Below, one piece after another: positions 37,527-64,000 of a DNA stretch of 64,000 bases. The stretch is from Thetidibacter halocola (GTDB lineage: Bacteria; Pseudomonadota; Alphaproteobacteria; Rhodobacterales; Rhodobacteraceae). The translations under genes and the position numbers were made by a program. The stretch is taken from contig NZ_JAGTUU010000001.1 in the NCBI RefSeq assembly GCF_018224955.1, forward strand, positions 124,001 to 188,000. Reading direction: 5' to 3'. Under the pieces are notes generated by a model. That model made no database searches. It had not been told where the DNA came from and saw nothing but the letters and a program-made list of their open reading frames with translations. The stretch's first letter is position 1, and each line of letters starts with the position of its first letter.

Positions 37527-39518
37527 TCATTCCGTCGGGCCGGAAAAGGCGAGCGCGCGTTCCAGCTGGCGGTCGAGCGCGGTCTGTTCGCGCCGGGTCA
37601 GCGCGTGTTCCGCCTCGGCGCGTCCCTGCGCCCGCGCCCGCAGCGCCCACAGCACCGGCCGAACCGGCACCCGCAGCGCAAGGCGGCGAAGCCAGGGGGT
37701 AAAGCGGGTGAACAGCTCGTCGGACAAGGCGACGATCGCCTCGGTGCTGCCGGGATTGCCCTGCCGCCCGGTCCGTCCGAACAGCTGTCGGTCGATTCGG
37801 GCGCTTTCGTGGAACTCCGTCAGGATCACGTGCAACCCGCCAAGGGCCAGCACGTCTGCGCCGGGAATGATGTCGGTGCCCCGACCGGCGATGTTTGTCG
37901 CGACGGTGATTGCGCCGCGGCGTCCGGCCTCGGCCACGATCTCGGCCTCGGCCCGGTCCTGGGTAGCGTTCAGCACCTCGTGCGGCAGACCGCGCGCCTC
38001 TAGCACCGCCGCGCAGCGTTGCGACGCCTCGACCGAGCGGGTGCCGATCAGGACGGGCCGCCCGGCGCCATGCAGCGCCGCCACGCGCTCTGCCACGGCC
38101 TGCCATTTCGCCGGCTCGTCCCGGACAAAGGTCGCGCCCAGTTGTCGGGTCTTCAGCGGGCGGTGGCGCGGGATCCGCACCGTGGTCAGGTCGAACGTGT
38201 CGCGGAACTCGGCGGCCAATTCCATTCCGGTGCCGGTCATGCCCGACAGCCGCATGTAGCGGCGAAAGAAGCGTTGGTAAGTGATCCGCGCCAGTGTCTC
38301 CTTGCGGCCCGTGACCTCGACCGCTTCGCGCGCCTCGATCATCTGGTGCAGCCCGCCCTGCCAGCTGCGGTCGGGCATGATGCGGCCGGTGAACTCGTCC
38401 ACGATCTGCACCTTGCCCTCGCGCACCACGTATTCGCGCCCCGACTCGAACAGGTGCAGCGCCGACAGCGCCTGCCGCGCCAGTTCCTCGCGCGCCAGCC
38501 GGATCGCCCAGAGGCCGGACAGCCGCGCGGCCCGCGCCCGTTCGGTCAGCCGCCGCTTGCCGGCCTCGGTCAGTTCCACCTGGCGGTTCATGCGGTCGAT
38601 GCGAAAATCCGCGGGCTCGGTCAGCGACCGCGCCAAGGCCAGCGCGTCCGCGTAAAGCTGCGCGGCCTCGGGGTCGTCGGCGGTGGTCGACAGGATCAGC
38701 GGCGTGCGCGCCTCGTCGACGAAGACGCTGTCGGCCTCGTCGACGATGGCAAAGGCCAGACCCCGCAGCATCAGCGGCTGCCCTGCCCCGCCGCGCGTCA
38801 GCGCCAGCGCGCGGTGCCGCGCCTGTCCGCGCCGCGCCTTCAACGCGATCCGGTCGCGCAGGTAGTCGAAGGTCAGATTCGCGTTCGAGACATAGGTGAT
38901 GTCGCAGCGATAGGCGTCGCGGCGTTGTTCGGGGTCCATGTCGCTGTCGATCACCCCGACCGTCAAGCCGAAGAAGCCGTAAAGCGGCCGTGTCTCCTCG
39001 GCATCGCGGGCGGCGAGGTAGTCGTTCACCGTCACCACGTGCACCGGGTCGCCCGCCAGCGCCGCGACAACCGCCGCCGGCGTGGCGGTCAGGGTCTTGC
39101 CCTCGCCGGTCGCCATCTCGACCATGCGGCCCTCGTAAAGCCCCAGCGCGCCCATCACCTGCACCTTGTAGTGCCGCTTGCCCAGCACCCGGTCCGAGGC
39201 CTCTCGAACCGCGGCAAAGGCCCGCACCAACGCCTCGACATCGCCGCGCCGTCGCGCCAGAAGGCGGGGCCGCAGCGCCTGCGCCGCGGCGCGCAGGGCA
39301 TCGTCGGACAGGGCACGAAATTCCGGTTCCAGCGCCATTACCTGGTCCGCGCGGCGCAACAGGCGCCGGCGCAGCAGCGGGGCGCGCGCCTCGAGCCAGC
39401 CCAGCCGGCGTTCCAGCCACAGGTCCACGGCATTGCCGCGCGGGTCGCTGCGCTCGGCATAGGGTGCGATGCCGCGGGATGGGCGGCCAAAGCCCAGGAG
39501 GCCTTGCACCTCAGGCAT
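37527..39518 (-). CDS. Short SecA-like translocation ATPase
   Basis: This 663-residue protein carries the SecA motor. NBD1 has MATGEGKTLTATPAAVVAAL and the DEAD-type VDEADSVFVDEARTPLI. A preprotein cross-linking domain is present (VDEFTGRIMPDRSWQGGLHQ). NBD2 has SGMTGTGMELAAEF, TNIAGRGTDIIPG and QLFGRTGRQGNPGS. Only about 70 residues follow the last motif, so most of the helical scaffold, the wing domain and the C-terminal zinc finger of standard SecA (about 900 residues) are missing. The start at 39518 (MPEVQGLLGFGRPS) overlaps the M50/HlyD stop by eight bases. It is the last gene of the giant-protein operon and is likely a dedicated export motor rather than the housekeeping SecA. Confidence 0.85.
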   Translation of the reverse strand: MPEVQGLLGFGRPSRGIAPYAERSDPRGNAVDLWLERRLGWLEARAPLLRRRLLRRADQVMALEPEFRALSDDALRAAAQALRPRLLARRRGDVEALVRAFAAVREASDRVLGKRHYKVQVMGALGLYEGRMVEMATGEGKTLTATPAAVVAALAGDPVHVVTVNDYLAARDAEETRPLYGFFGLTVGVIDSDMDPEQRRDAYRCDITYVSNANLTFDYLRDRIALKARRGQARHRALALTRGGAGQPLMLRGLAFAIVDEADSVFVDEARTPLILSTTADDPEAAQLYADALALARSLTEPADFRIDRMNRQVELTEAGKRRLTERARAARLSGLWAIRLAREELARQALSALHLFESGREYVVREGKVQIVDEFTGRIMPDRSWQGGLHQMIEAREAVEVTGRKETLARITYQRFFRRYMRLSGMTGTGMELAAEFRDTFDLTTVRIPRHRPLKTRQLGATFVRDEPAKWQAVAERVAALHGAGRPVLIGTRSVEASQRCAAVLEARGLPHEVLNATQDRAEAEIVAEAGRRGAITVATNIAGRGTDIIPGADVLALGGLHVILTEFHESARIDRQLFGRTGRQGNPGSTEAIVALSDELFTRFTPWLRRLALRVPVRPVLWALRARAQGRAEAEHALTRREQTALDRQLERALAFSGPTE

Positions 39519-41661
39519 TGAACTGCCGCAAGAAGAGCTGCCGCACCCGCCGCCAGATCTGCCAGCCCGCCGGCTCGAACCCGTGATCGAAGCGCACCAG
39601 GACCCGCATGCCAAAGGGCGCGTCGGCCAAGGCCTCGGGCAGCGCCAGGTCATAGAGAAAAGCCTGGCTCAGCAGCGTCGCGCCCTCGGGGTCCGCCGGG
39701 TCGGTCTGGAACCGGCCGCCCGCCACCTCGCCAAGCGCCGCCGCCGGCAGGACGGCAGTCGCCTGCGGCACGCTGCGCGCGAGGCTCGCCTCGTGGCGCT
39801 GATCCATCCGGCCCAGCAGACGCACTTCGACCGCGCGCGTCCGTTCCCGAACCAGCGCGATGTCTTCCTGCGGGACCAGAAGGCGCGCCACTTCAGCCCG
39901 GGGCGGCAGAACGTGGCCAACGATGTCACCTTCGCCGACCCAACGCCCGGCCATGTCGGAAATCGGGATCGCCGGGCGAAAGCGCCCCGCAACGCCGGCA
40001 TGCAGGGTCTGACGCAGGCGCCGCTCGCGTTCGCGCTGCCATTGCGCCTCGGCTTCTGCCAGTTGCACGCGCGCCGCGGCGATTTCGCTCCGGTCCTCGG
40101 CCTCGGCCCGTTGCAGGCGTCGCCTGGCCTCGTCGACGCGGGCGGCGAAAACGACCACGCGTGTCTCGACAGGCGGATCGTCGAGCCGGGCAAGGATGGC
40201 GCCCCGGGCGACCTCGGCGCCTTCGGCGACCGGCAGATCGGCGATGAACCCACCTGATCCGGCGCGCACCACGGCGTCCTCGGGCAGCCAGATCACGCCC
40301 TCGGTATCGGTGCGCAGCGGCAGCGGCACCAACAGCAGCGCCAGAGCCAGCACCGCGATGCCGCCAAAGGTCAGGCCGACCGCGCGCTTGCGCACCTTGC
40401 GCAGGCTGGGCGAGGTCACGACATGGCGCAGGTGTTTGGCGATCGGCTTGACCACCGAATTGAACACCGACCAGATCGCCAGCAGCACGCCGAGGATGAA
40501 AAAACGCTGCGCCACCAGCAGGGCAATGCCGACCATGACAACCATCCGGTAGGCCCAGGCGGCGGGCGCATAGAACGCGAACCAAGCCTTTTCACCCGGC
40601 GTGGCCGGATCGGCCTTCAGCGTGCGGGCGTTGAACAGATAGCGCTGAACGACATGGCCCCACCACTTGTTCGCCCGCTGCGCCAGGTTCGGGATCTCGA
40701 CCAGGTCGGTCAGCACGTAATAGCCGTCGAACTTCAGCAGCGGATTGCCGTTGATGGCCAGCGTCGACATGCCGCCGATCAGCACGAGGTTGAAGGCGAT
40801 GGCGCGGACGAAACCGGGTTCTGCCGCGGCCCAGACCATGACCGCCACGGCGGCGACGAAAGTTTCGGCAAAGATACCGCCCGCCGACACCGCCGCGCGG
40901 TGCCATTTCGACCGGAACGCGGCTGCTGCCGAGGCATCGACGTACGGCACCGGGAAGAACACGAGGAACATGATCCCCATCTCGCGCACCTCGCCGCCGC
41001 GCGCGCGGGTCAGGTAACCATGGGTCAGTTCGTGGAATGCCTTGAGCAGCGGATAGGTCACCAGGCTGATGACCAGGTTCTGCGCCGCAAAGACCCGCTC
41101 GGCCAGGTTGCCGGTCAGCGCCGGCCAGTGCACCGCAGCCGTCGCCAGCCCCGCGACGACCACCGCCAGCCACAGGCAGAACCCCGCCCAGCCCGTCAGC
41201 CAGCGCACCGCCGGCAGGGTCCGGCGCAGAAAGGCGTCCGGGTCCCAGAGCGGGATGCGAAAGCTCATCGGGTTGGTCAGGTTCTGCTTGATGATCTGCC
41301 GCGCATTGCGCTCGTGCCGCTCCAGCAGGTCGGCCACGTCGGGACTGCCCTGGTAGCGGATCAGGTCGTTCTGGTGCAGCTGAGACAGCAGCCGGATCAC
41401 GTCGTCCTGACCCGGCGCATGGTTGTCCTGCACATCAGCCAGCGCGCGCCAGATCTCGTCCACGCTGCGGCTGCCGTCGAACTGGCCAATCAGCATCCAG
41501 GCGCCTGGCGTGAACCGGTGGACCCGCCCCGAGGCGTGGTCGTGCAGCACGTACCAGGGTTGGCCACGATAGCGGTGGCGATGCACGCTGACATGCGGGC
41601 GCAGCCTGGGTTTCAGCCCTGCAACCCGATACCACAGCGTCGACAGGAAGCTTTCGGCCAT
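39511..41661 (-). CDS. PqqD-like / M50 intramembrane metallopeptidase / HlyD fusion protein
   Basis: This 716-residue membrane protein has three parts. Residues 1-110 form a winged-helix, PqqD-like region (HRFTPGAWMLIGQFDGSRS). Residues about 150-440 are polytopic with the site-2-protease zinc motif FHELTHGYL near 209 and the conserved NGNPLLKFDGYYVL near 301. Residues about 455-716 form a HlyD-type barrel-sandwich with a short coil (VDEARRRLQRAEAEDRSEIA). All metal ligands of an M50 peptidase are present. Its start lies one base after the stop of the GAF-HlyD gene. The fusion of a protease with an export adaptor suggests cleavage of the giant protein during passage. Confidence 0.85.
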   Translation of the reverse strand: MAESFLSTLWYRVAGLKPRLRPHVSVHRHRYRGQPWYVLHDHASGRVHRFTPGAWMLIGQFDGSRSVDEIWRALADVQDNHAPGQDDVIRLLSQLHQNDLIRYQGSPDVADLLERHERNARQIIKQNLTNPMSFRIPLWDPDAFLRRTLPAVRWLTGWAGFCLWLAVVVAGLATAAVHWPALTGNLAERVFAAQNLVISLVTYPLLKAFHELTHGYLTRARGGEVREMGIMFLVFFPVPYVDASAAAAFRSKWHRAAVSAGGIFAETFVAAVAVMVWAAAEPGFVRAIAFNLVLIGGMSTLAINGNPLLKFDGYYVLTDLVEIPNLAQRANKWWGHVVQRYLFNARTLKADPATPGEKAWFAFYAPAAWAYRMVVMVGIALLVAQRFFILGVLLAIWSVFNSVVKPIAKHLRHVVTSPSLRKVRKRAVGLTFGGIAVLALALLLVPLPLRTDTEGVIWLPEDAVVRAGSGGFIADLPVAEGAEVARGAILARLDDPPVETRVVVFAARVDEARRRLQRAEAEDRSEIAAARVQLAEAEAQWQRERERRLRQTLHAGVAGRFRPAIPISDMAGRWVGEGDIVGHVLPPRAEVARLLVPQEDIALVRERTRAVEVRLLGRMDQRHEASLARSVPQATAVLPAAALGEVAGGRFQTDPADPEGATLLSQAFLYDLALPEALADAPFGMRVLVRFDHGFEPAGWQIWRRVRQLFLRQFNA

Positions 41662-41662
41662 C

Positions 41663-43537
41663 TCAGGGCTGCCATGTCCAGAGAGTCTCGCGCGCCCAGT
41701 CGATCAGGCGCCGCGACCAGACCCACGACACTAGCGCCTGCCCGGCATCCAGCTTGGCCACGCCCTGCATGCCGGGGCGCAGACCGCTGGCCACGGCGTC
41801 CAATGCGGCCTCGACCCGAAAGGTGTTGGCCCCGTTGCGCGCCTCGGCCATCGGCGTGATCCGCGTCACCGCCAGCGGCAACCCCTGGCTCGGTTGACCG
41901 GCCAGCGCCAGCCGTCCGGGCGTCCCCTCGGTGACGTAGCGCAGGTCGCGTTCGTCCACGAAGATGTCAACGCGGTAACGGTCGAGCGGCGCGACTTCGA
42001 ACAGCACTTCGCCCAGCTGCACCGGCGCGCCGAGTTTCTGGCTCAGATCGCCCGAGACGATTACCCCGTCGATCGGTGCGCGCAGCTCGGCGCGCGCCAG
42101 TTGCGCCTCGGCCAGGTCGGCCTGCGCCCGCGCCTGCGCCACCTGCGCCTCCAGCAACGCGACCTGCGCCCGGTCCTTCTGCGCGAGTGCATCGCGCGAC
42201 TGGCTGGCCAGCCGGTCCATCTCGGAGCGCCAGCGCAGCGCCTCGAGTTGCAGGTCGGCCTGGTCCAGCCGCACCAGGATATCACCGGCGGAGACCGTAT
42301 CGCCGGCACGCAGCGGCGCCTCGGCGATGAAGCCCGCAAAGGGTGCGACCACGGCGCGATTGATCTCGCCGCGCAGGACGGCATCCGCCTGCACCCGGAA
42401 CGGGCCGGTCACTGTCAGCGCGCCGGCCACCAGCCCCGCCAGCACCAGCGCCAGCAGCTTCCACGACAGCCGCCGCGGCCCCAGCAGGATCCCCAGCACA
42501 TGCAGCGTTCCGTCGACAAGCCGCCCGCCGATCCAGCGGCGGTTGCGCCGCTTCAATTCGAGCGCGGGGCCGACAAGGGCGGCAATCGCCTCGGCCAACG
42601 ACAGGTCCTCGTCCCCAAAGGGCTTGTCCTCGCGCCGCTCGAAGGTCATCGCCCCCACGGGACCGGAGGCATCCGACAGCGGCACGGTCAGGATATGCCG
42701 GGTGCGCGATCCCTTGACATGGTCGGCATGGGCGACTGCGATGGCGCGCGCCGTCGCCGTCAGGGCGGGCACCGCGACCGGCGCCACCTGGTCGAAACAC
42801 TCCTCCATCGCCGTTTCCAGCGTCTCGGCCAGGGACGACCGGCGCCGGAACCAGGCGGCATGGGACAGGGCCAGCAGGCGGATCCGCGGGCTGGATGCCC
42901 GCCCCCGCACCATCCCGATCGAGGCCTGGTCCGCCGCCAGCGCCGCCTGCGCCTCGGCCAGGATCGCCATCGCCGCCGCCTCTGGCTTGGCATGCTCGGC
43001 GGTCACGGCGAGGATATCCAGCGCGATCTCGGCCCGCTTCAGGCGCTGTGCGGCATCGGTGGCCCGTTCGTCCGCCAGCCGCGCGGCGATCCAGCCGCTG
43101 GCCCAGTGCACCTCCTGGAGGGCGGCCTGCGCCGCGGCCTCGTCGGCGCCGGGCATGTCCAGCACGATCACCGCGGCGACCTGTGGGCCGGCATCGGGGC
43201 CGATCAGCACAGGGTAGCCGACATGGCGCCCGCCCTCGACCACCGGCACCGCCGGGCGGCCCGAACTCAGCACGCGTTCCGCCGTGGGCGCAAAGGCCGA
43301 CAGGTCGCGGCGCGGGTCGGGCACCACGGCGACCGGCTGGAACACCCCCTCCTCGAGGTTGCGCTCCAGCACCACGCCCAGCGTCGCGCCGCGGCACCGC
43401 GCCACCAGCAGCGCCAGCCAGGCGGCCAGCCGCCCGGTTTCCGACCGCGCCCCGGCAAAGGCCGACCAAAGGCCCCGGTCCATGGTCGCAGGGGTCGCGC
43501 CCGGTTGCGACGGCTCGGGTCTGGCGGAGATCGTCAT
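41663..43537 (-). CDS. GAF-domain HlyD-family adaptor
   Basis: This 624-residue protein has a long cytosolic N-terminal region of about 345 residues with two GAF-like sensor stretches (LTVPLSDASGPVGAMTFERR and FGDEDLSLAEAIAALVGPAL). One membrane helix follows (LLALVLAGLVAGALTV, near 356-378), then a periplasmic HlyD adaptor with barrel halves (GFIAEAPLRAGDTVSAG and LRAPIDGVIVSGDL) and a coiled hairpin. It resembles the membrane-fusion half of a type I exporter, but with a sensor in place of an ABC partner. It lies 15 bases after the DUF3467 gene and is coupled to the M50/HlyD gene. Confidence 0.82.
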   Translation of the reverse strand: MTISARPEPSQPGATPATMDRGLWSAFAGARSETGRLAAWLALLVARCRGATLGVVLERNLEEGVFQPVAVVPDPRRDLSAFAPTAERVLSSGRPAVPVVEGGRHVGYPVLIGPDAGPQVAAVIVLDMPGADEAAAQAALQEVHWASGWIAARLADERATDAAQRLKRAEIALDILAVTAEHAKPEAAAMAILAEAQAALAADQASIGMVRGRASSPRIRLLALSHAAWFRRRSSLAETLETAMEECFDQVAPVAVPALTATARAIAVAHADHVKGSRTRHILTVPLSDASGPVGAMTFERREDKPFGDEDLSLAEAIAALVGPALELKRRNRRWIGGRLVDGTLHVLGILLGPRRLSWKLLALVLAGLVAGALTVTGPFRVQADAVLRGEINRAVVAPFAGFIAEAPLRAGDTVSAGDILVRLDQADLQLEALRWRSEMDRLASQSRDALAQKDRAQVALLEAQVAQARAQADLAEAQLARAELRAPIDGVIVSGDLSQKLGAPVQLGEVLFEVAPLDRYRVDIFVDERDLRYVTEGTPGRLALAGQPSQGLPLAVTRITPMAEARNGANTFRVEAALDAVASGLRPGMQGVAKLDAGQALVSWVWSRRLIDWARETLWTWQP

Positions 43538-55900: not shown

Positions 55901-58900
55901 TCTGCGCAATCGCCCCGTCGCCGTCATCGGCGATGCCCACCGCCGCCGCGGTGGCGGCCGCAACCGCGCCGCGGCGCGCGATGACATAGGTGTCGCCTTC
56001 GCCGATTGCCGTCACGAGGCCGGTATCGGCCACGCGGATGACCGACGGATCGGCAGACAGGACGTCGACATAGTCGAAGGGCAGGATCACGTCGGCCTGG
56101 TCCTCGAACTGGCCAACGAGAACCATGCCCGAGACCTCGCCCGGCGCGTCGAACAGGTAGCGGCGCATCAGGAAGTCCATCTGCGTCAGCGCCGCGTCCG
56201 ACACCGTCACGTCGATGGTGATCTCGGAGGTTGCCGCATAGCCGTCATCGGCCACCACCGTGACCGACCCGGCGCCGTGATAGCCATCCACCGGCCGCAC
56301 GCGCAGGAACTGTCCATCCGGCGTGAAGGTGGCCGTCACGTTCTCGGTCGAGGCGATCCGGAAGAACACCGTGTCGCCATCGGGATCGGTGGCGATCTCG
56401 TCCAGACGCAGCAGGTAGGGCAGCTCGACATGGGTAAAGACCACAGGCAGCGTCGCCGCAACGGTTGGCGCCGCGTTCCGGCGCACCCCGAAGTTGACGT
56501 TCAGAACCTGCCGGTCCTGGGCATCGACGGCGCCATTGCCGTCGATATCCGTCCCCGCCCCGGCGTCGCGCAGCAACGCGCTGTCCGTGCCATCGACCGA
56601 CCCGTCCGCGTTCAGGTCGCCGGCAAGGCCGACCGTCAGGACAAAGTCACCGGCCCCGGCCACGTTCAGCCGGTGCAGGCCGCCCGCCTCGAAGCTGTAA
56701 AGCGCCACGGACCCGTTCGAGCCCTGTTGGAGGCTCAGAAGGGCGGCGCCCTCGATGCTGGGCACTTGGGTCGCGGAATCGGTGGCGATCCGCAGGATCA
56801 ACCGCCCGCCGGCCGCGCCGGCCACCTCGCTGTCGCGGATGGTCAGGGCATAGGTTGCGGGCCCGGTGCCAAGGATCATGCGCCCGGTGAAGTTGCCCAC
56901 GCCGCCCAGGTCCTCGACGATGGGAACGAGGCGGGTGCTGCCGTCGGGGAGGTATTCGATGGCGTCACCGGCGCCACCGATCTCGGCGGCGATGCTCAGC
57001 CGGCCCTCGGAATCGTAGCCGTAGCGAACGCCGCTGCCATCCTGGAGCTGGCGTACCCCGGTCAGGCGGCCCGCGTCGTCATAGGTGTAGATCAGCGTGC
57101 GCCCGTCCGGCGCCGTGGCGCGAACGATCCGCCCTGCTTCGTCGCGCAGGAAGGACAGCACGTCGCCATTGGTCGCGGTGATGCCGCTCTGGCCGATGAA
57201 CAGGCGCTCTCCGGCGACGCGGATCTCCTGCACTTCGCCCCCGGCGTTCAGCACGTATTGCGTGCCGCCCGGCGCGGTCAGCAGGAAAGGCTGCACGCCG
57301 CCAGACTGAGGATCGGTCGGGTTGTAGGGCAGCCCGTCCGAGGCGGCATAGAACCGCCCGCCGGTCTTGCGCAGGATCATGTCCGACGAGGCCAGCGTCC
57401 AGTCGCCCTGGTCGGCGACCCATTGTGGCCGCCAGAAGGTCGCCGGGCCCACCATCTGTTCGACCGGCGCAAAGGTGAAGCCCATGCGCACGCCCGTGGG
57501 CAGCGTCAGGTACAACCGGCTGCCGGCCTGAAGCGCGCTGTAGATGCCAAAGGATTCCCGCCCGGTGCGCGGCAGGTTCAGCGCGAGATCGGTGTCGAAC
57601 CCGGCCGACCAGGTGCCGAAATCCGCATCCGCACCGGACAGCGCGTCGTAGCGGCGATCGAGGACAAGGCCGATGCCACCCAGCGTCACGGCCAGGTCGC
57701 TGCGGCGGTCGGTATGGCCGGTCAGCTTGTCCTGCCCGTTGATCTCGATCGTCAGGTCCGACCGGCTGGAGCGGCCGCCGATGTCGATGGCGCTCAGCCG
57801 CAGACGGTAGAAGCCGTTTTGCAAGCTCCGCGTGTCCAGCTGCGCCAGCACGCCGCCGGCCACGGCATCGCCCGAGGCCAGGCTGCGCAGGACGGCGCTG
57901 CCATCGGCGCGCATCAGGTCCAGCGTCCAGGTGTCGATATTGGCATCCGCCACGATCCCGGCGATGTCGACCACCCCGGACAGTTGCCGCGCCCGCAGGT
58001 CGTCATCGAAGAAGACCATCGGCGCCGACCGGTCGGCCGGATCGCGCACCTTGAGCGGCAGGTCCGCCACGCCCTCGATCCCGTCGGCATCCACGGCGAC
58101 GGCGCGCAGCGCGACCTTGCCCGGCACGGTCGGCGTGATCGTCGCCCGCCCGCGCGCATCCAGCGCCGTTTCGACCCCGTCGACGAAGAACCGGATCCCG
58201 GTGATGTCGGCCAGGCTGTCTGCGACCACCGTCACCAGAACCGGCTGGCCCGGCGCAACCGGGAAGGAGGGGGTCAGCTCGATCCGCACATCGGGTTTCA
58301 CTGGCTCCAGCGTCGCCCGCATCACGATGGTCTGCCGCGCGCTGCGCGCCCCGTCGGAGGCGATGAAGGTGACGTAGTATTCGCCCACCTGCCCCGGCCC
58401 CGGTGTCCAGGCGACCTCACCGGTCGTGGCGTCCAGCGTGGCCCCTTCCGGCAAGTTCAGCGCCTCGAAGGTCAGCGCCTGACCATCCGGGTCAGAGGCC
58501 TCGAGGGTAAAGCGCTTTTCCTCGCCCACGAGGAAGGCGCGGTCAGACGCTACCAGCTCTGGCACGCGATTGACGTTGGCGATGTCGATATCGACCGACA
58601 GGCGCGTGACAAGGCCGGTCGGGTCGGTCGCGGCGAAGGTCACGGTATAGGTGCCCGCCTGCTCGAAGCCGGGCAGCCAGACGAATTCGCCCCTTTCCAC
58701 AGAGAAGGCCGCACCCTGGGGCAGGCCCGACACGACCGACAGTTTCACCGGATCGCCATCGGGATCGTCAGCGATCACGGAAAAGCGGATCTCGGCCCGC
58801 TCGCGGCCCAGTTGCGTCAGCATCGGCACGAAGACCGGCGCCCGGTTCTGCGGGTCGATGCGGATCTCGACCTTTTCGGTCGAACTGCGATTGCCGTCCG

Positions 58901-61900
58901 AAACCGTCAGCCCGATCGTGTAGCTGCCCGCCTGCGCGGCGTTCGGCGTCCAGTCGAGCCGCCCGGTGGCACGGTCGAACCGCGCGCCCAGCGGCAGGCC
59001 CTCGACGCTGAAGGTCAGCGCGTCGTCATCGTCGTCCGTGGCGCCGAAGGTGACGGTCAGCGGCGTGTCCTCGACCCCGGTGATCTGGCCAACCGGATTC
59101 AGGACCGGCGCCGCGTTGGCAGCGCGCACGGTGATACCCAGGGCCACGTCGGTCGTCGCGGGCGCGGTCTTGCCATCCGCCCCGGTATCGGTCGCGCGGA
59201 TCGTCGCGGTATAGCTGCCCGCCTGCGAGGCGGTCGGCGTCCATTCCAGCAGCGCCCGTCCATAGACCAGCGGATCGGCGGTCAGCACGGCGCCGGCCGG
59301 CAGGCCAGTCAGCGCATAGGTCAGCGCGTCCTGGTCGAGGTCGCGCGCGGTCAGCGTCAGGCTCAGCCTTTCGCCGATCACCGCCACCACGTCGGACTGG
59401 TAGACCCATTGCGGCGGCTCGTTATCGGCCTCGACCTCGACCACGAAAGTGTGGAAATCGCCGCGCGGCAGGCCCTGCGCGCCACCATCGTCGGTCGCCA
59501 CCAGCGTCAGCGCATGGGCGCCCCGGTCGCCGACCTGCGGCGCAAGCCGGATCGTCCCGGTGCCGTCACCATTGTCGGTGAAACTGACGAAGTCCGGCAG
59601 TGGAAAGCCCGGCTGTTCGTTCACCAGTTGCAGCGTGATCGGGTCGCCGTCGGGATCGACGGCGTTGACGGCGATCTCCTGCACGTCGCCCCGCGCCAGC
59701 GTGATCGTCGGCACATCCGCCACCACCGGCGCGAGGTTCAGTTCGCGCACCGTCAGGGTGAAGGTTTCCGTCACCGACAGCGGCACGCCGGTATCGACGC
59801 CATCATCGGTCGCCCGGACGGTGAAATCGTAGCTGCCCGCCTGGGTCGGACCGGGCGTCCACAGCAGCTGCCATGTCTCGGCATCGAAACTCGCACCCTC
59901 GGGAAGGTCGCCCAGCATCTCGACAGTGACGCTCTTGGGGATGTCGCCGCTTTCGACGAAATCGCCGTCGAGGTTGCGGTAGCCCGGTTCATAGAACGGG
60001 TTGTCCGGATCGAAGGCAAAGACACGCAGCGCGAACTGCTGACCCTCGTAGACCTGAAGCCCGTCGAACTCGTCGAAGACCGGCGCGCCATTGCTGGCCA
60101 GCACTTCGATCTCCATGCGCTGCACGGCGACGCCGGTGCCATCGGACACGGCAAAGAAGATCTCGTAGGTGTCGGCCTGAGTATAGCCCGGAATCCATTC
60201 GAATTCGCCGGTGGCCGCGTTCAGCGTCGCGCCGAAGGGCAGCGTCTGGTTGACCACGCCGAAATCCAGCGTCGCGCCCGGTTCCGCCTCGGCCCTCAGG
60301 ACAAAGCGGATGCGGTCGCCCTCGGATGCGGTGATCCTGGCCGGAACCTGGAGCGTGACCGGGCGCAGCGCCTCGGCGACACGGATCTCGACCTCGGTCG
60401 CTGCCTCGCGGCGGCCGTCAGAGGCGCGCAGAACCACCTTATAAGTACCGGCCTGGCCATAGCCCGGCCCCCAGGTGAACTGGCGGGTCTGCGGATCATA
60501 GCTGGCCCCCTGCGGCAGGCCGTCGACCCAGGTGATGACCGCATCGGCATCGGGGTCCGAGGCTATCACGTCGAACTGGATCAACCCGCCCTCGCGGGCA
60601 TCGACCGTCGCGGGCACGCCGGTAAACACCGGCGCCCGGTTGCCGCCCGTCACCGACAGGACGAAGCGTTGCAGCGAGACCGCGCCACGTGCGTCGAAGA
60701 CCTGCACCGTCACCGGGGTTTCGGCGTTGGCGCCGGTCAGCGGCGTCCAGGTGATCAGGCCACTGGACGCATCGATTTCCATGCCATTCGGGGCCGACAG
60801 CAGCGAATAGACCACCACCTCGCCATCGGGATCCTCGACATCGACATCGTAGACAAAGGGCTGGCCAAGCTCGGCAATGGTCGGCGGCACGGTCAGGAAG
60901 ACCGGCGCCGCGTTCGGCCCGGAGGATGCCGCGACGCCTGCGGTGAACTCGACCCGCAAGCGGTTCGGGGTGACGATGGCGACGGTCACGCCGGTGGTCG
61001 TCTCGCCTGCCCCCAGACGGCCGCCCGGCGGCAGGCTGTCGGTCAGGTCGATCAGCCACAGCCCGTCATCGGTGCGCCCATTGGCGGCGCTCGGCACGCC
61101 CTCGTAGCCCTGTGAGGGATCGAGCAGCAGCAGAACCGGCAGGACGATGTCGCGGTCGGTCTTGTTGGTCAGGCGCACCTCGTAGCTGACCGTCCCCGAC
61201 GCTCGGTCATAGCGGGTGCGGAAGAATTCCACGTCGACCAGCGCCGACAGGTCGTCCAGCGCCTTGAAGGTCGTGACATGATCCGCCCCCATGCGGATCC
61301 CCTGGAGCGAGGTCAGCGCCGCCTTGACCGTCACGGTATAGTCGCCCTGGATCAGCCCGTCGGTGCGCAGCAGCGTGGTGCGGCTGGCGATGTCGTAGAC
61401 CACCGCCGTTGGCGTCACGCGGGTGCCTTCGGCATCCGTGATGACGTAGTTTTCCGGGTTGATGACAGATGCGGGCTGATCCGCCGCGCCGACATACATG
61501 TCCTGGTCAAAGCGGATCGCCATGACCGGCATCGGCAGCGGCACCACCGCGTCGGCAGCGGGGTTGGTGAACACCACGCTGGGCGCATAGGCCGGCGAGA
61601 TCACGTCGACCTGCCCGCTCTGGCTGACCAGGATGCGCCCATCGGCGGTGGCGATCACCACGTCGCCGCGGCTGCCGCCGGTGGCCAGCTCGATGCGGTT
61701 CAGCGTCTCGAGATCGACCATCGTCAGCGCCGAGCCTTCCGACGCCTCGCCGGTGCCCGAAACACGGCCCGTATTGGCCGAGACGAACAGCAGGTCCTCG
61801 AGGATGGTGCCCTGCTGGCCGAAAGCGATCGAGTCGATCTGGCTGTCGAACTTCAGCATCGTTTCGGCGCGCTGCCGGTCGGTAAAGCGCACGACCTGCG

Positions 61901-64000
61901 CGCGGTCGGGCCATGTCACCGCCCACAGGACTCCGCGCTGGTCGAAGGCCAGCGATCCGACACGCAGGTTCTCGTCCCGGCTCCACTGGGTGAACTGGCC
62001 GGTCTCGGGATCGAAGATCGAGACGCCCGCATTGGTGCCGACATAGATCAGGCCGGTCGCCGCCTCGACCGCAAGCCCCATCGTCAGGCCGTCGCCATGC
62101 CGTTCCAGCACCGCGCCGGTCAGCGGATCGAGGCGCAGCAGCGCGCCTCCACCGGTGGTGGCCCAGACCCGCCCCTCGGCATCCTGCGCAAGGTTGAAGA
62201 TCGGATCGTCGAGCTCGGCCAGCAGCGTTTCCGCACCGGCCTCGCCGCCGAACGTGCCGAACCGGTAGAGCGATCCGCGATTGGCCCCGCCCGACACCAG
62301 GATCGACCCGTCAGCAAGTTCGAGGATCGCCATCGGGCCGATGCCGGCGTTTGACTGCACGAAACCGGTGGCAAAGGCGGACCCCGCCATCGGGCTGAGA
62401 ACGCGTGTGTAGTCCGGCTGGTTGACCAGCGGATCGGCCGCCGGGACGTTCTGCGACGCCAGGCGGAACAATTCGTTGGTGGATGGCAGGTCGACCGGCG
62501 CGGGCGGCTGACCGAAATTCGGCGCCGTGGTCTGGTCAACCGTTGGCGTGCCGCCCAGGTTCACCGCCTGCCCGTCCGATGTGGTCACCGAGCCGTCGCG
62601 CGGCGCCTCGCGGTTGCCCGCGACATCCGTGGCGAGGGCGAGGAATTCATAGGCCTTGCCCGCAGCGCCGTCGAAGGTGGCAAGGCCCGATGTGCCCGCG
62701 ACCCGGCGCTGCCAGATGCGGAAATCGCCGCCATCCTCGGCGACATAGACGGTGACATGCTTGACCCCCGACGCACCGGGATCGTCCGTCGCGCTCCAGC
62801 GCACGTCATAGCTGTCGGTCCCGGCGATCCGCTGCACGGTCAACGACGTCGTGGGTGCAGCCCCGTCCACCACCTGCACCAGTTCGTTGGTGGATTCCGG
62901 CGCGGCGGTATCGAACAGCACTCGTGCCGACGAGGTGATGCGCGTGCCGGTCTCGACGTCCTGCCGCGGCTTCACCGTCCAGGACACGAAGCCCGCGCCG
63001 ATGTCTCCGGCCGTGTTCGGCGGCAGCAGGCCGCGAGTCACGTCCTGCAACACCTCGCCGGTCAGCGGGTCGACCGCCTGCAACACCCAACGCGCCGAGG
63101 CCGGGTCCTGGAACAGGTCGATGCCCGCGGAGACACGCAGGCGGAAGCCATGGCTCTGGCTGAAGTCGATCTCGTCCTGGTAGAACCAGCGCCCGTCCGG
63201 CACGTCGATCGTGATGTCGCCGATCTTGATGTCGCCCAGTTGGAAGCTGCGCGGATCGAGATCGGGATCGAGCTGCGTGACGATCTCGATCTGGTTGGCG
63301 TGGACTGGCGAATTCGCGTCGTTCTCGAATTTAACCGAAAAGGGCAGTTGCTCGCGCGCGGGCAGCCAGCCCATCGTCTCGAGCGTCTGCGGACCGGACA
63401 GGGATGCCAGCCCCGCCACGTTCGCCGGGTCGGCGAAGTAGCGCGAGAAATCCAGCGCCTCGAACTCGTCGCCATCGACCGGGGCGACGCCGTTGTTCAT
63501 GAAGTCCGCCGGCAGCGCGGCGCCACGAAACTCGAACGGCACCCAGGGCGAATAGATGCGCACCGCCTCGAAATGGGTCTGGTTCGTCAGGCCGAGGTCG
63601 TAATCCTCGAACACCGGCAGTTGCGGCACCGGGATCTCGCCCTCGTAGCAGTCCGATTGGCGCGGATCGTAGTATTCGATGTCGGCCATCAGGTTCGGAT
63701 CGTGGCCATACAGCGTGCGCAGCTGCTCGAAGAAGCCAAGGATGTCGCCGTCCGAGCGGATGTCCTGCCCCGCCGGGCCGAACAGGATGCCCGAGGCCAG
63801 CGTCGTCATCAGCGACAGGATTTCCTGGTGCGTCCGGATCGGCGGGATCGCGTCCTCGGCGCGCAGGATGCCCGCCTGTTCGAGGCCCGCCATGAAGATA
63901 TCCACCCAGAGATCCGGATCGGCAACGATGGCAACCAGCGGCGCGGGCGCATCGTCGGAGGCGAGGATCGCATCGCGCAGCGCCAGCGCCTCGCGCGTCT
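43920..64000 (-). CDS. Giant multidomain extracellular protein (5' end beyond window)
   Basis: A single minus-strand frame of at least 6,692 codons is open to the right edge, so the N-terminus is not seen. Order of parts from the visible N-terminus: helical and beta region (64.0-62.5 kb); beta-propeller (62.4-61.5 kb); nine Ig/cadherin-like repeats (60.9-58.3 kb); YD-type repeat (near 57.1 kb); dockerin-like calcium loops (near 56.6 kb); BIG2-like domains (56.0-55.6 kb); a hydrophobic stretch (near 55.1 kb); second propeller (54.4-53.4 kb); hydrolase-like domain with GHSRG (52.5-51.7 kb); metzincin-like domain with HEMGN (near 48.93 kb); ten tandem cadherin-like repeats (47.65-45.0 kb); and beta-rich, cohesin-like C-terminal domains. 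No RTX repeats are present. It probably acts at or outside the cell surface as an adhesin or matrix protein; that role is inferred. Confidence 0.9.
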   Translation of the reverse strand, partial: TREALALRDAILASDDAPAPLVAIVADPDLWVDIFMAGLEQAGILRAEDAIPPIRTHQEILSLMTTLASGILFGPAGQDIRSDGDILGFFEQLRTLYGHDPNLMADIEYYDPRQSDCYEGEIPVPQLPVFEDYDLGLTNQTHFEAVRIYSPWVPFEFRGAALPADFMNNGVAPVDGDEFEALDFSRYFADPANVAGLASLSGPQTLETMGWLPAREQLPFSVKFENDANSPVHANQIEIVTQLDPDLDPRSFQLGDIKIGDITIDVPDGRWFYQDEIDFSQSHGFRLRVSAGIDLFQDPASARWVLQAVDPLTGEVLQDVTRGLLPPNTAGDIGAGFVSWTVKPRQDVETGTRITSSARVLFDTAAPESTNELVQVVDGAAPTTSLTVQRIAGTDSYDVRWSATDDPGASGVKHVTVYVAEDGGDFRIWQRRVAGTSGLATFDGAAGKAYEFLALATDVAGNREAPRDGSVTTSDGQAVNLGGTPTVDQTTAPNFGQPPAPVDLPSTNELFRLASQNVPAADPLVNQPDYTRVLSPMAGSAFATGFVQSNAGIGPMAILELADGSILVSGGANRGSLYRFGTFGGEAGAETLLAELDDPIFNLAQDAEGRVWATTGGGALLRLDPLTGAVLERHGDGLTMGLAVEAATGLIYVGTNAGVSIFDPETGQFTQWSRDENLRVGSLAFDQRGVLWAVTWPDRAQVVRFTDRQRAETMLKFDSQIDSIAFGQQGTILEDLLFVSANTGRVSGTGEASEGSALTMVDLETLNRIELATGGSRGDVVIATADGRILVSQSGQVDVISPAYAPSVVFTNPAADAVVPLPMPVMAIRFDQDMYVGAADQPASVINPENYVITDAEGTRVTPTAVVYDIASRTTLLRTDGLIQGDYTVTVKAALTSLQGIRMGADHVTTFKALDDLSALVDVEFFRTRYDRASGTVSYEVRLTNKTDRDIVLPVLLLLDPSQGYEGVPSAANGRTDDGLWLIDLTDSLPPGGRLGAGETTTGVTVAIVTPNRLRVEFTAGVAASSGPNAAPVFLTVPPTIAELGQPFVYDVDVEDPDGEVVVYSLLSAPNGMEIDASSGLITWTPLTGANAETPVTVQVFDARGAVSLQRFVLSVTGGNRAPVFTGVPATVDAREGGLIQFDVIASDPDADAVITWVDGLPQGASYDPQTRQFTWGPGYGQAGTYKVVLRASDGRREAATEVEIRVAEALRPVTLQVPARITASEGDRIRFVLRAEAEPGATLDFGVVNQTLPFGATLNAATGEFEWIPGYTQADTYEIFFAVSDGTGVAVQRMEIEVLASNGAPVFDEFDGLQVYEGQQFALRVFAFDPDNPFYEPGYRNLDGDFVESGDIPKSVTVEMLGDLPEGASFDAETWQLLWTPGPTQAGSYDFTVRATDDGVDTGVPLSVTETFTLTVRELNLAPVVADVPTITLARGDVQEIAVNAVDPDGDPITLQLVNEQPGFPLPDFVSFTDNGDGTGTIRLAPQVGDRGAHALTLVATDDGGAQGLPRGDFHTFVVEVEADNEPPQWVYQSDVVAVIGERLSLTLTARDLDQDALTYALTGLPAGAVLTADPLVYGRALLEWTPTASQAGSYTATIRATDTGADGKTAPATTDVALGITVRAANAAPVLNPVGQITGVEDTPLTVTFGATDDDDDALTFSVEGLPLGARFDRATGRLDWTPNAAQAGSYTIGLTVSDGNRSSTEKVEIRIDPQNRAPVFVPMLTQLGRERAEIRFSVIADDPDGDPVKLSVVSGLPQGAAFSVERGEFVWLPGFEQAGTYTVTFAATDPTGLVTRLSVDIDIANVNRVPELVASDRAFLVGEEKRFTLEASDPDGQALTFEALNLPEGATLDATTGEVAWTPGPGQVGEYYVTFIASDGARSARQTIVMRATLEPVKPDVRIELTPSFPVAPGQPVLVTVVADSLADITGIRFFVDGVETALDARGRATITPTVPGKVALRAVAVDADGIEGVADLPLKVRDPADRSAPMVFFDDDLRARQLSGVVDIAGIVADANIDTWTLDLMRADGSAVLRSLASGDAVAGGVLAQLDTRSLQNGFYRLRLSAIDIGGRSSRSDLTIEINGQDKLTGHTDRRSDLAVTLGGIGLVLDRRYDALSGADADFGTWSAGFDTDLALNLPRTGRESFGIYSALQAGSRLYLTLPTGVRMGFTFAPVEQMVGPATFWRPQWVADQGDWTLASSDMILRKTGGRFYAASDGLPYNPTDPQSGGVQPFLLTAPGGTQYVLNAGGEVQEIRVAGERLFIGQSGITATNGDVLSFLRDEAGRIVRATAPDGRTLIYTYDDAGRLTGVRQLQDGSGVRYGYDSEGRLSIAAEIGGAGDAIEYLPDGSTRLVPIVEDLGGVGNFTGRMILGTGPATYALTIRDSEVAGAAGGRLILRIATDSATQVPSIEGAALLSLQQGSNGSVALYSFEAGGLHRLNVAGAGDFVLTVGLAGDLNADGSVDGTDSALLRDAGAGTDIDGNGAVDAQDRQVLNVNFGVRRNAAPTVAATLPVVFTHVELPYLLRLDEIATDPDGDTVFFRIASTENVTATFTPDGQFLRVRPVDGYHGAGSVTVVADDGYAATSEITIDVTVSDAALTQMDFLMRRYLFDAPGEVSGMVLVGQFEDQADVILPFDYVDVLSADPSVIRVADTGLVTAIGEGDTYVIARRGAVAAATAAAVGIADDGDGAIAQIFGIDAYPDTVTILPEGGRRQIVTELGSGLQDYIGGEQGVVYISGNESVVTVTADGLIEAVAPGVTTVTVIYRGAEEVLEVTVAPPVEGNTATIGAAGGALRTADGMEFAFGAGQIAGGDATVTVTAVAEQDLDIVVPEALTFLAAADLEIIGGTLGGPIQMGARVDPSVAAPGEQVMFLVADDFTEISGGEFGKIWRLVDTGYVDENGIARTASPPFPGLTEKGSILVAKANQPTRQAFDWGSDLAAAAGIVSIGLGIAFATTGGLLGAVAGLSLVGVGTAFLLKSQADRVVIYKKYLDGKDWEKALERDIPAGDPAEKVTLSVTRPSGSVPPAAGAAPYISSAKPTIEGGKVRIEFTVENAIYGTDSPAFGAFGSDIEDTRVKFAIGNNLHYVTGAAFDVGSVNASSGKATFVIDAPEGILLGRARITFERPQPGGAGGDLDGWSYGTRAVESTPIQVKNTRGYGGMGASDAAGNTMLQIFDVLAEGATADADAESTELVANVLLKDGLTDLRGWPNDVLMAPDLSAAFVATTSGIAVVDMTLLRQYDTDADSPGADIIKVPGGNVQKLTISGDGSFLYAAGTGKIFVIDMRPGSSTYLQAEQISLPAEFDLPGLAGKINDIELSSDGSKLYVAVPLAPMFGQDGWARSPLSAKKGKIVVINVDPADRGKPSFHQIIKILDAGVDPYDIDATSDPNRLVFVARGENRSGFYTIRVTDPNPDSYAATVSKLPTLSDGASDTRRSLELNLKPIQVRYDPFVFGPYIFDRYVRGTSQRYDLDIRYPVAVEIAPDLSYAFVADYDLSRYLTMNDAELAYYIEQYHELGNKIGLIRNPFDLSQADWDKAEIEHMWGTAGLVGATSPIPDQYLTELAMRPDGSQVLANFRKAGVIVTLRVDEAIKEAEKGISNGKVGQVNREVPIDLDYPYWSLKTAIAPGNRENVYGPGLDVQFWGRGLDIQGEALVELIRPSGVTQVNGTGKQPLRFEVHLDPRKIGQSTFMMDLFMSTQKAGEGLFPNDDFRTRYFPSNDPEKTSDYNPWRLINSRQTAGTYAFESGNYYLLGPDGSIKEERALTAADINGGVQLKHAVVIEVAEGLSRVLTGGQDYFWGVAVARGGGPIYADATFETPPIVANPNGFATVQVVTHGFQIALMPDSPNTPLNEATLAAWLANAEVLNEAAGGGLIAVYNRQTGKFHEYDPVKVEGYRISGVPITASDLPKGKALTLVMDWYRESDISDSGYSEAAADAFFASLVELDRVGGIFDSPMHFVGHSRGTVVNSEIIQRLGTLIEVPQGKDMNIHMTTLDPHDFKQDSLKVALKSLVESYIKAIKLAGILISLAPPPGPMIGSGLQKIAGFMEDISKLFFKVGGLLGLQAAEIPWDDFKDPNVQVWSNVDFADNYYQETVKPPTSSGSVGGAVSNLFSGIVGTFTQTTTPNGTAIPTTNDGADKVPSPKGVPDVQISFTKSAGGSPLNVPGFISDDIMATPHSRITNWYLGTADVNALFMGGETVWRTAGDQGIVVGTSAMPSAIQQVGAIFGENFTKQPWYGVNLSAFNNGNWSGIKGQLDKYFEFAGFNPINGTSANSLRNEAVGVGFYFSAVAGDPEILSAVTGKTRTSLDFDNTEVDRPKLAKIQDPNNPTQQIDQAYPAVPSIFNGDFSHGTRHAMTDYVKWLLDSAYNKYLANTLNIQEAKEAAVKDATEKLTASGIFASAKKSIGSAIDSIPDLPPELGRFPLSYDLPGWSMHGGIDHGAGDFTDEGVSFTLDIFKNVLDESWGFNSPIDITGRFLVNQNWIGELLDVVGRVAKPLIDRVLDNIVERFRNPAWDTGLNPDEKAARAKQNIATANDGVLKQTGTNADGSPILSVVDANDPTKVLFTPGQLESLSGSLVNFLVDDGVIVDLLVKVIDETIKYIIEQPEVKAFLADVKAQSDAAKAKDPNAVVFDITAFSLSGGIGPLAWIIGRPIRTDSVANENADRDSRLADIGKVTAIIQKNLGVLLSQLFPNVDVKPDYGLLMGGSQALKELIKTFTPEGGFSVPFLGHFDPGQAMIDFIDQVGQLDKLTHNRLYVPPTMETLKFDAFIPVNFNDDFRAEAIFTTIDGQTYTANATYKSPKTGQTVTTPYFAFQPGLFSSQTATFTIPSEVKGRVANVTIRNIGLERAAAATPSEAVLNFLESVQLLGLGDGVSVLMVVDDIRFAKPGSNQTAAGIGAGGVGELRLFEAQALAEVAEGIWIDSELWGGAADYLDGFELRVADLDGEALAYSEGRIITLDLDAAGNGWFIDATPGQAEEFEPVDGAPHVYRAIAGGAADGRVDLLTVLLHEMGNVMGLPDLIDPTAPGYVMSSILDTGLRRLPMAEDVGDLSPPVAGPEARPLVMNRAATSGGSASASAGGATAALSGGTPSDFTNGGFSGGLSGWTTVGDVTVTAAGARLHETRGAMSGLSQTFALPAEVTAIQFRVSGLSLGSGGNAAPDAFEAALFDASTGAMVLPAIEGLGGTDAVLNFQADGSRFASSAVSVVEIGGDLIVTLDLTGLATRPDGVTLAFDLIGMGALGAEVTVSTVRLLGTEPNTAPVAVGETATTVEDTPVDIDLLANDSDAENDPLILEVVGDLGGATLVALGNGVFRYTPAPDVSGEAVVRYRLFDGVDRSDVVDLTITISAVNDAPVFDPLDDRTVPRGAEVTLTPVARDPDAAPGELVFALVSGPADATVDPETGRLSWTPATLGDQSFTLRATDGEGAFGETTFTLRVRTAPVLTADNVAVVQGTALSHAVSATDEDSAAGLVFEKIDGPDWILVDAVTGAVTGDSTGRMGEATVSVRVTDPDGLSDTASFVVDVNVPPAITAGALIVVEGDALALEPVVTDPDSDPADLVFALEPGAPSWLSIDPATGIVSGDTTGQVGPTTFSIRVTDEAGLSAVAEVTVTVRARPVLLATDTVLVEGAALVHSVDATDADSPRASLRFEKLAGPDWITVDPVTGAVTSDSLGQVGRFTVTVKVEDPDGLSSEGDFTVRVLGVPVLSLADTTLTEGAGLVLEPAVSDADSPADRLTFAKVAGPDWITVDPATGRIAGDSTGQVGVTTIRIRVTDAEGNADEAEARITVQGRPTLAIADVTLVMGEALSHPVTAGDPDGPASALRFAKVSGPDWVSVDALTGRITGDSNDQPGEVTVTVAVTDAQGLTTRASFTLDVNAPPQLSDRTAILVEGEGLDFDIGATDPDAPDEDLRFRAISGPDWITVDPLTGRLSGDSAGVVGRHTVVVEAVDADGLATRATMTIRVLAVPVLVGGSVTLVEGEALAFTPSVSDADTPAAQLVFAKMSGPDWVTVDPATGRLRGDSTGAPGETAVRISVTDSNGLSDEADVSIDVNSRPVLSGSGVTLVEGQALSLPLSARDADLGSGALTFAIVSGPAWIAIDPVTGLVTGDSTGHSGAVSATFRVTDPDGLSDEVTLTIDVNARPTLAVADVTLVRGDALSHAVDATDADTPASGLTFRLLSGPAWIVVDPATGRITGDSTGQAGETIVRISVTDADGLTAEASFLLDVNAPPVARDRTVTLLAGRPLSITLEAEDDDGSPDALTWRLLDAPDWIAFDPAKQTLTGNTAGRFGPVTARLEVMDADGLIDEATVQIRIAAPEIEGGPRLPVVGRGGSRPVSPPIEVDLPPIRLTRATLPEYPITFARFGGTSFGSGVHLIPVLFQSEGGVREIELEVTHRAGKLSMLDAVLGVCLPFGVSVDSTITDPDGENPVMRIRVFSEQPLPAGVIDLFRIRVLRGDVIAGAGLQVRTVTINGEPVTDAPVVTPDNGGKGPVRIDLGVGLSLPDLPPASVDIALGGFGASVQGPLLIDPDALSGGYVGLRMSGLSSASEVRMILGYDGAALRPIGGLATLESGELAVEDRPEQSEVEVRVSNLPSLLADLAVLACVGFARPLGTGRGTGTVKLKKLVIDGADVPLDDEIADWMDAPVQSYTLTQGGSANGLKIPFALPERLNMPER
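45000..47655 (-). repeat. Ten tandem ~88-residue cadherin-like repeats in the giant protein
   Basis: Ten consecutive units of about 264 bases each read along the pattern (R/N)xxPxL, LVEGEAL, DxDxP, GPDWITVDPxTG, GDSTGQxG, VTDxDGL. Spacing is even and the units are diverged but clearly homologous, consistent with old tandem duplication. The fold expected is a rigid calcium-stabilised beta-sandwich stalk. Confidence 0.85.
58300..60925 (-). repeat. Nine Ig/cadherin-like repeats in the N-terminal half of the giant protein
   Basis: Nine units of 85-105 residues begin with variants of N(R/A)APVF and carry LPEGASFD, (F/L)xWTPGxxQAGxY and VTDG-type motifs. Neighbouring copies differ more than in the C-terminal array, so the two arrays arose separately. 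Confidence 0.8.

Follow-up and report, generated by a model that had tools for sequence, protein, structure and literature searches.

A gene cassette for a short SecA-like ATPase and M50 and HlyD-type proteins, recurrently linked to giant LEPR-leader proteins: a candidate export system

The stretch of DNA analysed here, referred to as the window, is 64,000 nucleotides of the 4.84 Mb genome of Thetidibacter halocola (assembly GCF_018224955.1), bases 124001-188000 of contig C1 (NZ_JAGTUU010000001.1). It contains a gene cassette that is considered here as a candidate export machine for giant proteins with an N-terminal LEPR motif. On the minus strand, genes for the giant protein, a DUF3467 protein, an adaptor with GAF and HlyD domains (GAF-HlyD), a membrane protein with PqqD-like, M50 protease and HlyD-type parts (M50-HlyD) and a short SecA-like ATPase lie in a row, with gaps of 34, 15 and 1 bases and then an overlap of 8 bases (Table 1). 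These families and spacings agree with an earlier note on this DNA, made from the sequence alone, with the qualification that the Pfam scores for M50 and PqqD are under cut-off. The DUF3467 start is taken from its ATG, and the 8-base overlap holds for an internal ATG of the SecA-like gene. The longest SecA-like frame reaches 39653, and the two paralogues contain nothing that corresponds to its first 45 codons; the ATG giving 663 amino acids (aa) is preferred and is most likely the start. The whole giant gene, as the longest frame, is C1:167920-206379 with 12,819 codons, and He_PIG, Big_9, CARDB and Laminin_G_3 modules were found in a scan of 9,999 of the 12,819 residues. Just upstream of it, in divergent orientation, is the gene for a soluble HlyD-type protein, making three HlyD-type adaptors in all. 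No ATP-binding cassette (ABC) ATPase is found by Pfam among the cassette genes.

Table 1. Features of the window cassette and the giant genes of the same genome (window positions unless a contig, C, or fetched stretch, L, is named)
Feature	Position	Strand	Remarks
Giant protein gene, C-terminal part	43920..64000	-	runs past window to C1:206379
DUF3467 protein	43553..43885	-	PF11950, 64.7 bits
GAF-HlyD adaptor	41663..43537	-	Pfam GAF 35.7 bits, HlyD_3 77.9 bits
PqqD-like / M50 / HlyD membrane protein	39511..41661	-	HlyD_3 24.8 bits, passes cut-off
PqqD-like domain (proposed leader reader)	41359..41553	-	residues 37-101, Pfam PqqD 21.2 bits, cut-off 23.4
HExxH metalloprotease motif, HELTH	41020..41034	-	in M50-HlyD protein
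Short SecA-like ATPase, 663 aa	37527..39518	-	SecA_DEAD 347.1, P-loop_SecA 160, SecA_PP_bind 96.4 bits; SecA_SW absent
Walker A GEGKT of SecA-like ATPase	39093..39107	-	G138-K141 invariant, T142 nearly so, 69 aligned sequences
Soluble HlyD-type protein, third adaptor, outside window	L007:18492-19346		HlyD_D23 68.3 bits
C5 giant	C5:13314-50612		12,432 codons
C2 giant	C2:142988-181675		12,895 codons, longest frame

A scan of the contigs of 84,980 species with an M50 alignment identified 158 relatives, and the top-scoring 80 were analysed as loci. These were picked by the M50 protein alone, and neighbouring genes were counted at 300 bits or more. The relatives are from alpha-, beta- and gammaproteobacteria and from contigs labelled Desulfobulbaceae, Deltaproteobacteria, Geobacter, Omnitrophota and Bacteroidia. 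GAF-HlyD is present in 76 of the 80 loci, and its position relative to M50 is upstream in 75 and downstream in one (L097); in the four loci that do not have it (L025, L050, L068, L082) the DNA starts at or near the M50 gene. The SecA-like gene is present in 73 loci, and all copies of both genes are on the M50 strand. Where a SecA-like match of at least 300 bits is missing from L036, L052 and L088, the DNA ends inside or just past the cassette, and L036 and L052 keep a partial match. The soluble adaptor occurs in 50 of the 80 loci (48 of the 50 members on the plus strand), a DUF3467 homologue in 26 and a SapC-family gene, inside the cassettes, in 18. An ABC ATPase, recognised by its Walker A and LSGG pattern, was found in just 6 of the 80 (226-371 aa, three on each strand, one confirmed as Pfam ABC_tran), and this scarcity, together with the varying distance and strand, suggests that it is no regular part of the cassette. 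A class sample of 289 genomes searched with the M50 profile gave mainly generic HlyD matches, with strong hits in the T. halocola genome only and 12 genomes at 110-264 bits. Recurrence across the loci and the genome samples rules out both chance neighbours and a curiosity of one genome.

It is clear that the composition itself is not new, although the earlier note had stated that no such pathway was described. Kamneva, Poudel and Ward (2015; PMC4452313), in their passages on the locus, reported "secondary SecA_DEAD" genes without the wing-scaffold beside M50, HlyD and GAF-HlyD genes, the role being unknown, and proposed that SecA_DEAD replaces the ABC ATPase and that M50 forms the pore. Their locus has the same gene set as the cassette, a SecA_DEAD protein without SecA_SW and M50, GAF-HlyD and HlyD neighbours. 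Methylobacterium extorquens AM1 (MexAM1_META1p2399-2402) is among the carriers that they name. According to the legend of their Fig 3, proteins of more than 1,000 aa are given as interrupted lines, so large neighbours may be drawn there. Compared with those passages, the link to a cargo, the leader, the SecA-less class and the co-inheritance are new here. In the literature searched, outside which were most subscription journals and all bioRxiv preprints, no other paper on the locus was found among those listed, and none that joins it to giant proteins or to the LEPR motif.

The T. halocola genome has three of these cassettes. With the SecA-like protein as query, the genome yielded the housekeeping SecA (contig C19) and two more short copies, on contigs C5 and C2, both in cassettes with M50 and GAF-HlyD and each adjoining its own giant. 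The C2 cassette has additional genes for SapC (L012:14602-15381, PF07277, 224 bits) and a soluble adaptor. The other domains found in the three giants differ, and the LEPR motif is common to all; RTX repeats are within the last 1,000 residues of the C5 and C2 giants. The C-terminus of the C2 giant (L019:12988-15987, minus strand) also has a metzincin-like HEIGHLLGLEH sequence with the RTX repeats, for which Pfam M10 scores 23.5 bits against a cut-off of 24. In a quick tree of 69 SecA-like proteins and 15 housekeeping SecAs, one branch divides the two groups with a Shimodaira-Hasegawa-like approximate likelihood ratio test (SH-aLRT) support of 100. The three T. halocola copies occupy distant places among the SecA-like proteins, and are therefore not recent duplicates, which rules out a recent triplication inside this genome.

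The motif shared by the giants is NCBIfam NF012209 (LEPR-XLL, LEPR-8K), which has a name and a model description that gives no function. It matches near the N-terminus of the window, C5 and C2 giants at 26.2, 32.3 and 30.9 bits, with a cut-off of 17. In the window giant the leader, 'FEPRLLLSADLIP', is near the N-terminus and is beyond the window (in L007). Two papers mention LEPR-XLL (PMC10868602 and PMC9611531) without tying it to an exporter in the passages concerned, where PMC10868602 compares a LEPR giant to secreted proteins. Among the genomes of the highest-ranked 50 of the 80 loci, 47 have NF012209 over cut-off, versus 0 of 14 control genomes, and in 43 of the 47 the open frame around the match is 2,000 aa or longer. 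For the C5 giant the whole-genome search gives 35.4 bits and hmmscan 32.3; as the former generally scores a few bits above the latter, LEPR hits of 17-21 bits should be seen as soft. The longest LEPR open frames met were of 17,824 aa (genome G408, contig C4) and 19,427 aa (G537:C115).

Of 40 stretches, 37 gave a leader position (the exceptions being L185, L186 and L187), the E and R of the core having been fixed by the search pattern. The P of EPR is present in 32 of the 37, and is followed by L-L/M-S-A-D, with L in 36, S in 34, A in 33 and D in 34; an E two residues ahead of the LEPR motif is found in 34. At its end the leader has the consensus E-x-L-E-P-R-x-L-L-S-A-D, and in most cases 45-75 residues separate the motif from the first ATG that could be the start. 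Most leaders are basic; they are also non-hydrophobic, with maximum 12-residue hydropathies of 0.42-1.47 (median 0.88, n=37) and of 0.87, 0.50 and 1.11 in the window, C5 and C2 giants, compared with 1.53-2.79 (median 2.14, n=29) for the signal peptides of neighbouring adaptors. For the part before the motif alone, the top leader reaches 1.70 and overlaps the lowest of these controls. By hydropathy, the giants would seem to be without a Sec-like signal. A possible leader start, M-x-x-P-F (MAFPF, MSYPF, MAHPF), was seen in L156, L167, L169, L171, L173, L177, L178, L179 and L181 and in the C5 and C2 giants, and may be another conserved tip of the leader.

A search for the linkage in other genomes, as the earlier note had suggested, connects the cassette with giant proteins there as well. 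The family sample contained one genome per genus (149 genomes; strong M50 at least 450 bits) and the phylum sample 299 genomes (strong M50 at least 440 bits). The thresholds of 450 bits, 440 bits and 2,000 aa were set after the scores were known, and per genome the best few first-look candidates were scored (3, 4, 7 or 8 by search). Strong M50 was found in 16 genomes of the family sample and LEPR in 21; 16 have both, 5 have LEPR only, 0 have M50 only and 128 have neither (Fisher 1.7e-17). With LEPR counted only in frames that reach 2,000 aa, the corresponding counts are 16, 0, 0 and 133, with the same 16 genomes. SecA-like matches over 500 bits are in 14 of these 16 and in no others, and the remaining two have short SecA-like copies of 412 and 406 bits directly adjoining M50. 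Of the 20 LEPR frames in this sample that are 2,000 aa or longer, 16 are on the same contig as an M50 gene and within 8 kb of it (frame ends estimated).

In the phylum sample, 33 genomes have both LEPR and strong M50, 17 LEPR only, 2 M50 only and 247 neither. A more distant M50-HlyD relative is present in 15 of the 17 LEPR-only genomes and absent from two (G672, G738). For the SecA-like protein and strong M50, the equivalent counts are 31, 3, 4 and 261, where SecA-like means a match reaching model position 652 or beyond among the matches listed (about 570 bits and up), so that weaker copies are missed. Of the four with M50 only, G487 does carry a SecA-like gene next to M50, though a divergent one (205.6 bits), the contig of G543 is just 3.2 kb, and no SecA-like protein was found in G493 and G648 in this sample. 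The phylum of the Omnitrophota-labelled genome is represented by 14 genomes, 2 with LEPR. The association of the cassette with this cargo is well supported.

It is possible to ask whether giants and cassettes merely travel together on mobile or plasmid islands with no functional tie. Horizontal movement is probable, given that cassettes are also found on plasmids and that one genome has cassettes on three distant branches. Hitchhiking of this kind is nevertheless very hard to credit, since long-frame LEPR and the strong cassette coincide in all 16 of the 16 family-sample genomes concerned, the three T. halocola giants share the motif while differing in other domains, and leader and exporter are inherited together. 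The last point was addressed with 27 giant and cassette pairs (3 from T. halocola, 8 within one locus and 16 matched by equal length of the contig). A Mantel test of leader against M50 distances gives r 0.58 (5,000 permutations, p 2e-4), and in 20 of the 27, with 3.1 expected, the pair that is nearest by leader is also one of the three nearest by M50. Species kinship could cause such a correlation, yet the three cassettes of one genome each pair correctly: by leader and by M50 alike the two nearest relatives are L026 and L022 for the window, L053 and L075 for C5, and L096 and L063 for C2. By these distances leader and exporter are co-inherited, including among the three copies of T. halocola.

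The SecA-like protein is shorter than SecA. In the best PDB sequence alignment, residues 52-607 of its 663 align to residues 21-553 of the 783-residue Bacillus subtilis SecA chain 3jv2. The AlphaFold2 model has a mean predicted local distance difference test (pLDDT) score of 89.9 and a predicted template modelling (pTM) score of 0.89, with a last long helix at 620-657, and the top query TM score among the 50 Foldseek matches listed (0.79) is to 6itc, a substrate-engaged SecA-SecY complex. By this alignment, model and structural match, the protein retains the motor and the preprotein-binding domain and lacks the wing-scaffold. A decayed housekeeping SecA is ruled out by the uniform length of the copies (64 of the 73 in the loci are 656-673 aa), the conserved catalytic motifs and the separate branch with SH-aLRT 100.

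This protein is genuinely related to SecA, with both the DEAD and the preprotein-binding domains, and could be an accessory motor of the SecA2 type. The giant would then cross through the housekeeping SecYEG, leaving to the M50 protein and adaptors only the passage through periplasm and outer membrane and the processing of the leader. The cassette does resemble accessory Sec in having a SecA-family motor alongside the housekeeping SecA, with a DEAD motor and a preprotein cross-linking domain. The genome has a single SecY gene, and a search of it for a second SecY or SecY2 as partner found none, so any SecY used must be that one; cassettes without a SecA-like gene, described below, would also fit the use of housekeeping SecA and SecY. 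This route is judged unlikely. The leaders are without a hydrophobic core by hydropathy, and SecA_SW is absent from the SecA-like protein, the helical wing being implicated in the SecA-SecYEG interaction in the passages concerned of PMC4452313. SecA2 chains of solved structure have 778-786 residues and are longer than the cassette protein, which at about 660 aa stops behind its second motor domain and a single long helix, and which has HlyD-type adaptors rather than SecY2 as partners.

In the M50-HlyD protein, H210, E211, H214 and D312, corresponding to the zinc ligands of HExxH and a distal Asp, are invariant across 80 aligned rows. Its AlphaFold2 model (mean pLDDT 85.7) can be divided into an N-terminal domain rich in strands, a membrane part made of helices and an adaptor part, and residues 17-104 are modelled as strands and then helices. 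Five of 13 plasmid records with a full-length M50-HlyD homologue carry a PqqD family annotation. PqqD-type domains recognise the leaders of ribosomally synthesised and post-translationally modified peptides (RiPPs), and GAF domains usually sense. The PqqD-like and M50 part resembles the RiPP leader proteases of the daptide HExxH / YydH-LiaK type, the daptide metalloprotease model NF041824 matching residues 18-397 with 139.9 bits. It differs from them in a score under the cut-off of 300, in the fusion to HlyD and in a partner protein of thousands of residues.

This resemblance, and the sensing usual for GAF domains, would suit a cassette that matures or senses the giant and does not export it, in which M50 and GAF act on an already exported giant or leader and the SecA-like protein is a chaperone or unfoldase. 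Such a role is distinctly improbable. Three HlyD-type adaptors, with adjacent TolC genes in the SecA-less class (two by Pfam, one annotated), make a trans-envelope conduit likely, and an ABC ATPase was found in just 6 of the 80 loci, as noted above.

A second class of loci, type B as opposed to the type A of the window, has M50-HlyD proteins that are only distantly related, at 210-286 bits in the ten loci fetched. In most of these one more HlyD adaptor is present together with a soluble adaptor, and several have a giant with N-terminal LEPRxxFDGA or something near it. By Pfam, a TolC-type (OEP) gene is adjacent in G530 and G572, and a GAF domain is present in G572 only. Thirteen type B stretches were read. 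Eight of them (G530, G555, G682, G573, G579, G607, G655, G738) were chosen for a listed LEPR hit, which in G738 lies in a 64-aa frame with no giant; among M50 stretches picked blind to LEPR (G028, G572, G656, G503), such a giant is present in 2 of 4. Escherichia coli plasmid NZ_CP081687 (L189, NZ_CP081687.1, 1-15752) has genes for an Ig-like giant, an annotated TolC, a resistance-nodulation-division (RND)-type adaptor, HlyD and M50-HlyD consecutively, the giant starting '...RFALESRQLFDGAALA...' and continuing with DUF4347. This M50 gene is present in 24 of 5,426 E. coli genomes, with 21 of its 25 places on plasmids. Pfam M50 scores 34.7 and 39.8 bits, over cut-off, for the two type B relatives scanned, 34.7 being the value of the E. 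coli protein, which has no PqqD match. The NCBIfam model was applied to six type B leaders, giving 12.7-16.4 bits for four (cut-off 17), 20.0 for one and no match for that of E. coli. An intermediate of types A and B is seen in G648 (L196, 4260-17803), which has the leader LEPRLLFSAT, M50-HlyD, GAF-HlyD and a small soluble-adaptor-like protein.

LEPR giants therefore occur with the protease and adaptor core alone, which suggests that M50-HlyD and the adaptors are the core of the system and that the SecA-like ATPase is the motor of type A. With a SecA-type ATPase in the position of the ABC protein, as the earlier note had it, the idea of an obligatory motor is weakened by type B and G648, which indicate that the SecA-like protein is not universally needed. 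Type B probably uses the same protease and adaptor core with another energy source. There are hints that the SecA-like motor accompanies the largest cargo: the best LEPR frame in the phylum sample has a median of 6,372 in the 31 genomes with the SecA-like protein and 2,850 in the 19 without (p 0.005), kinship not being controlled. The same comparison in assemblies of 60 contigs or fewer (8 versus 10 genomes) gives p 0.004, again with kinship not controlled.

The favoured reading of the cassette, to which a probability of about 0.7 is given, is that of a dedicated machine for the export of giants tagged by an N-terminal, non-hydrophobic and mostly basic LEPR leader. The PqqD-like domain at the cytoplasmic end of M50-HlyD would recognise the leader, and in type A the SecA-like ATPase would push the unfolded chain. 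The M50 zinc site would remove the leader and/or gate passage through the inner membrane, and the periplasmic parts of M50-HlyD, GAF-HlyD and the soluble adaptor would form a conduit to a TolC-type outer-membrane channel. The computed results behind this proposal are the gene linkage, the co-occurrence with LEPR giants, the joint inheritance of leader and exporter, the conservation of catalytic residues and the missing SecA wing-scaffold. We infer from them export itself, the direction of transport, the order of steps, the role of each part, the recognition and cleavage of the leader and the channel.

Several observations weigh against the proposed export machine. The strongest result against a simple replacement of ABC by SecA is the existence of SecA-less LEPR loci: no SecA-like gene was seen in the 13 type B stretches, none is annotated in the E. 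coli plasmid stretch, and none was found in G648, a 2-contig genome of the type A kind with a LEPR giant and the M50 and adaptor core. Among the 80 loci, L031, L061, L086 and L091 have ample DNA and no SecA-like gene locally, and L086 and L091 also show no giant within the available DNA. The five family-sample genomes with LEPR and no strong cassette have frames of 532-1,664 aa (two of the five score 17-21 bits), 4 of the 20 LEPR giants are farther than 8 kb from the M50 gene, and of the 84 phylum-sample genomes in which an M50-HlyD relative of any kind occurs, 36 show no LEPR match that passes the cut-off. In the window protein Peptidase_M50 scores 19.4 bits, under its cut-off of 27.2, as does PqqD relative to its own (Table 1). 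There is no PqqD match in the two scanned type B relatives, and leader reading by PqqD is therefore weakest for type B. The pTM of 0.61 for the M50-HlyD model makes its domain arrangement unsure, and the 50 PDB matches listed of 412 are adaptor-type entries with no protease or PqqD by title. The absence of a Sec-like signal is judged by hydropathy alone. No TolC-type channel gene is within the window cassette, and the genome has two OEP genes elsewhere, one of them weak.

In type I secretion, known from HlyB/HlyD/TolC and from giant adhesins of the LapA kind, there are likewise HlyD-type adaptors. Giant cargo of RTX or Ig type, and TolC in some type B loci, are further points of likeness. The cassettes differ in being without an ABC exporter, in the N-terminal leader and in the fusion of an intramembrane protease to an adaptor. 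It is tentatively suggested, with rather less assurance than for export itself, that they form a separate class of envelope secretion system with a leader of its own kind. The fusion of site-2 protease and adaptor would be receptor, signal peptidase and inner-membrane gate together, type A would be driven by a SecA stripped of its SecY-binding parts, and the SecA-bearing form would be specialised for the longest cargo.

Two orphans may explain each other in this way, the SecA-bearing locus of 2015, with its unknown role, and a named motif on some very large bacterial proteins. If export by the cassette is true, a cargo, a candidate targeting signal and an exporter for giant proteins have been identified, with a SecA motor working with efflux-type adaptors, and annotators gain a rule for predicting exported giants.

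Downstream of the SecA-like gene in the window and on the same strand, there is a hybrid histidine kinase with a receiver domain (32980-35415, minus). An unassigned 490-aa frame at 35364-36836 sits between it and the SecA-like gene.

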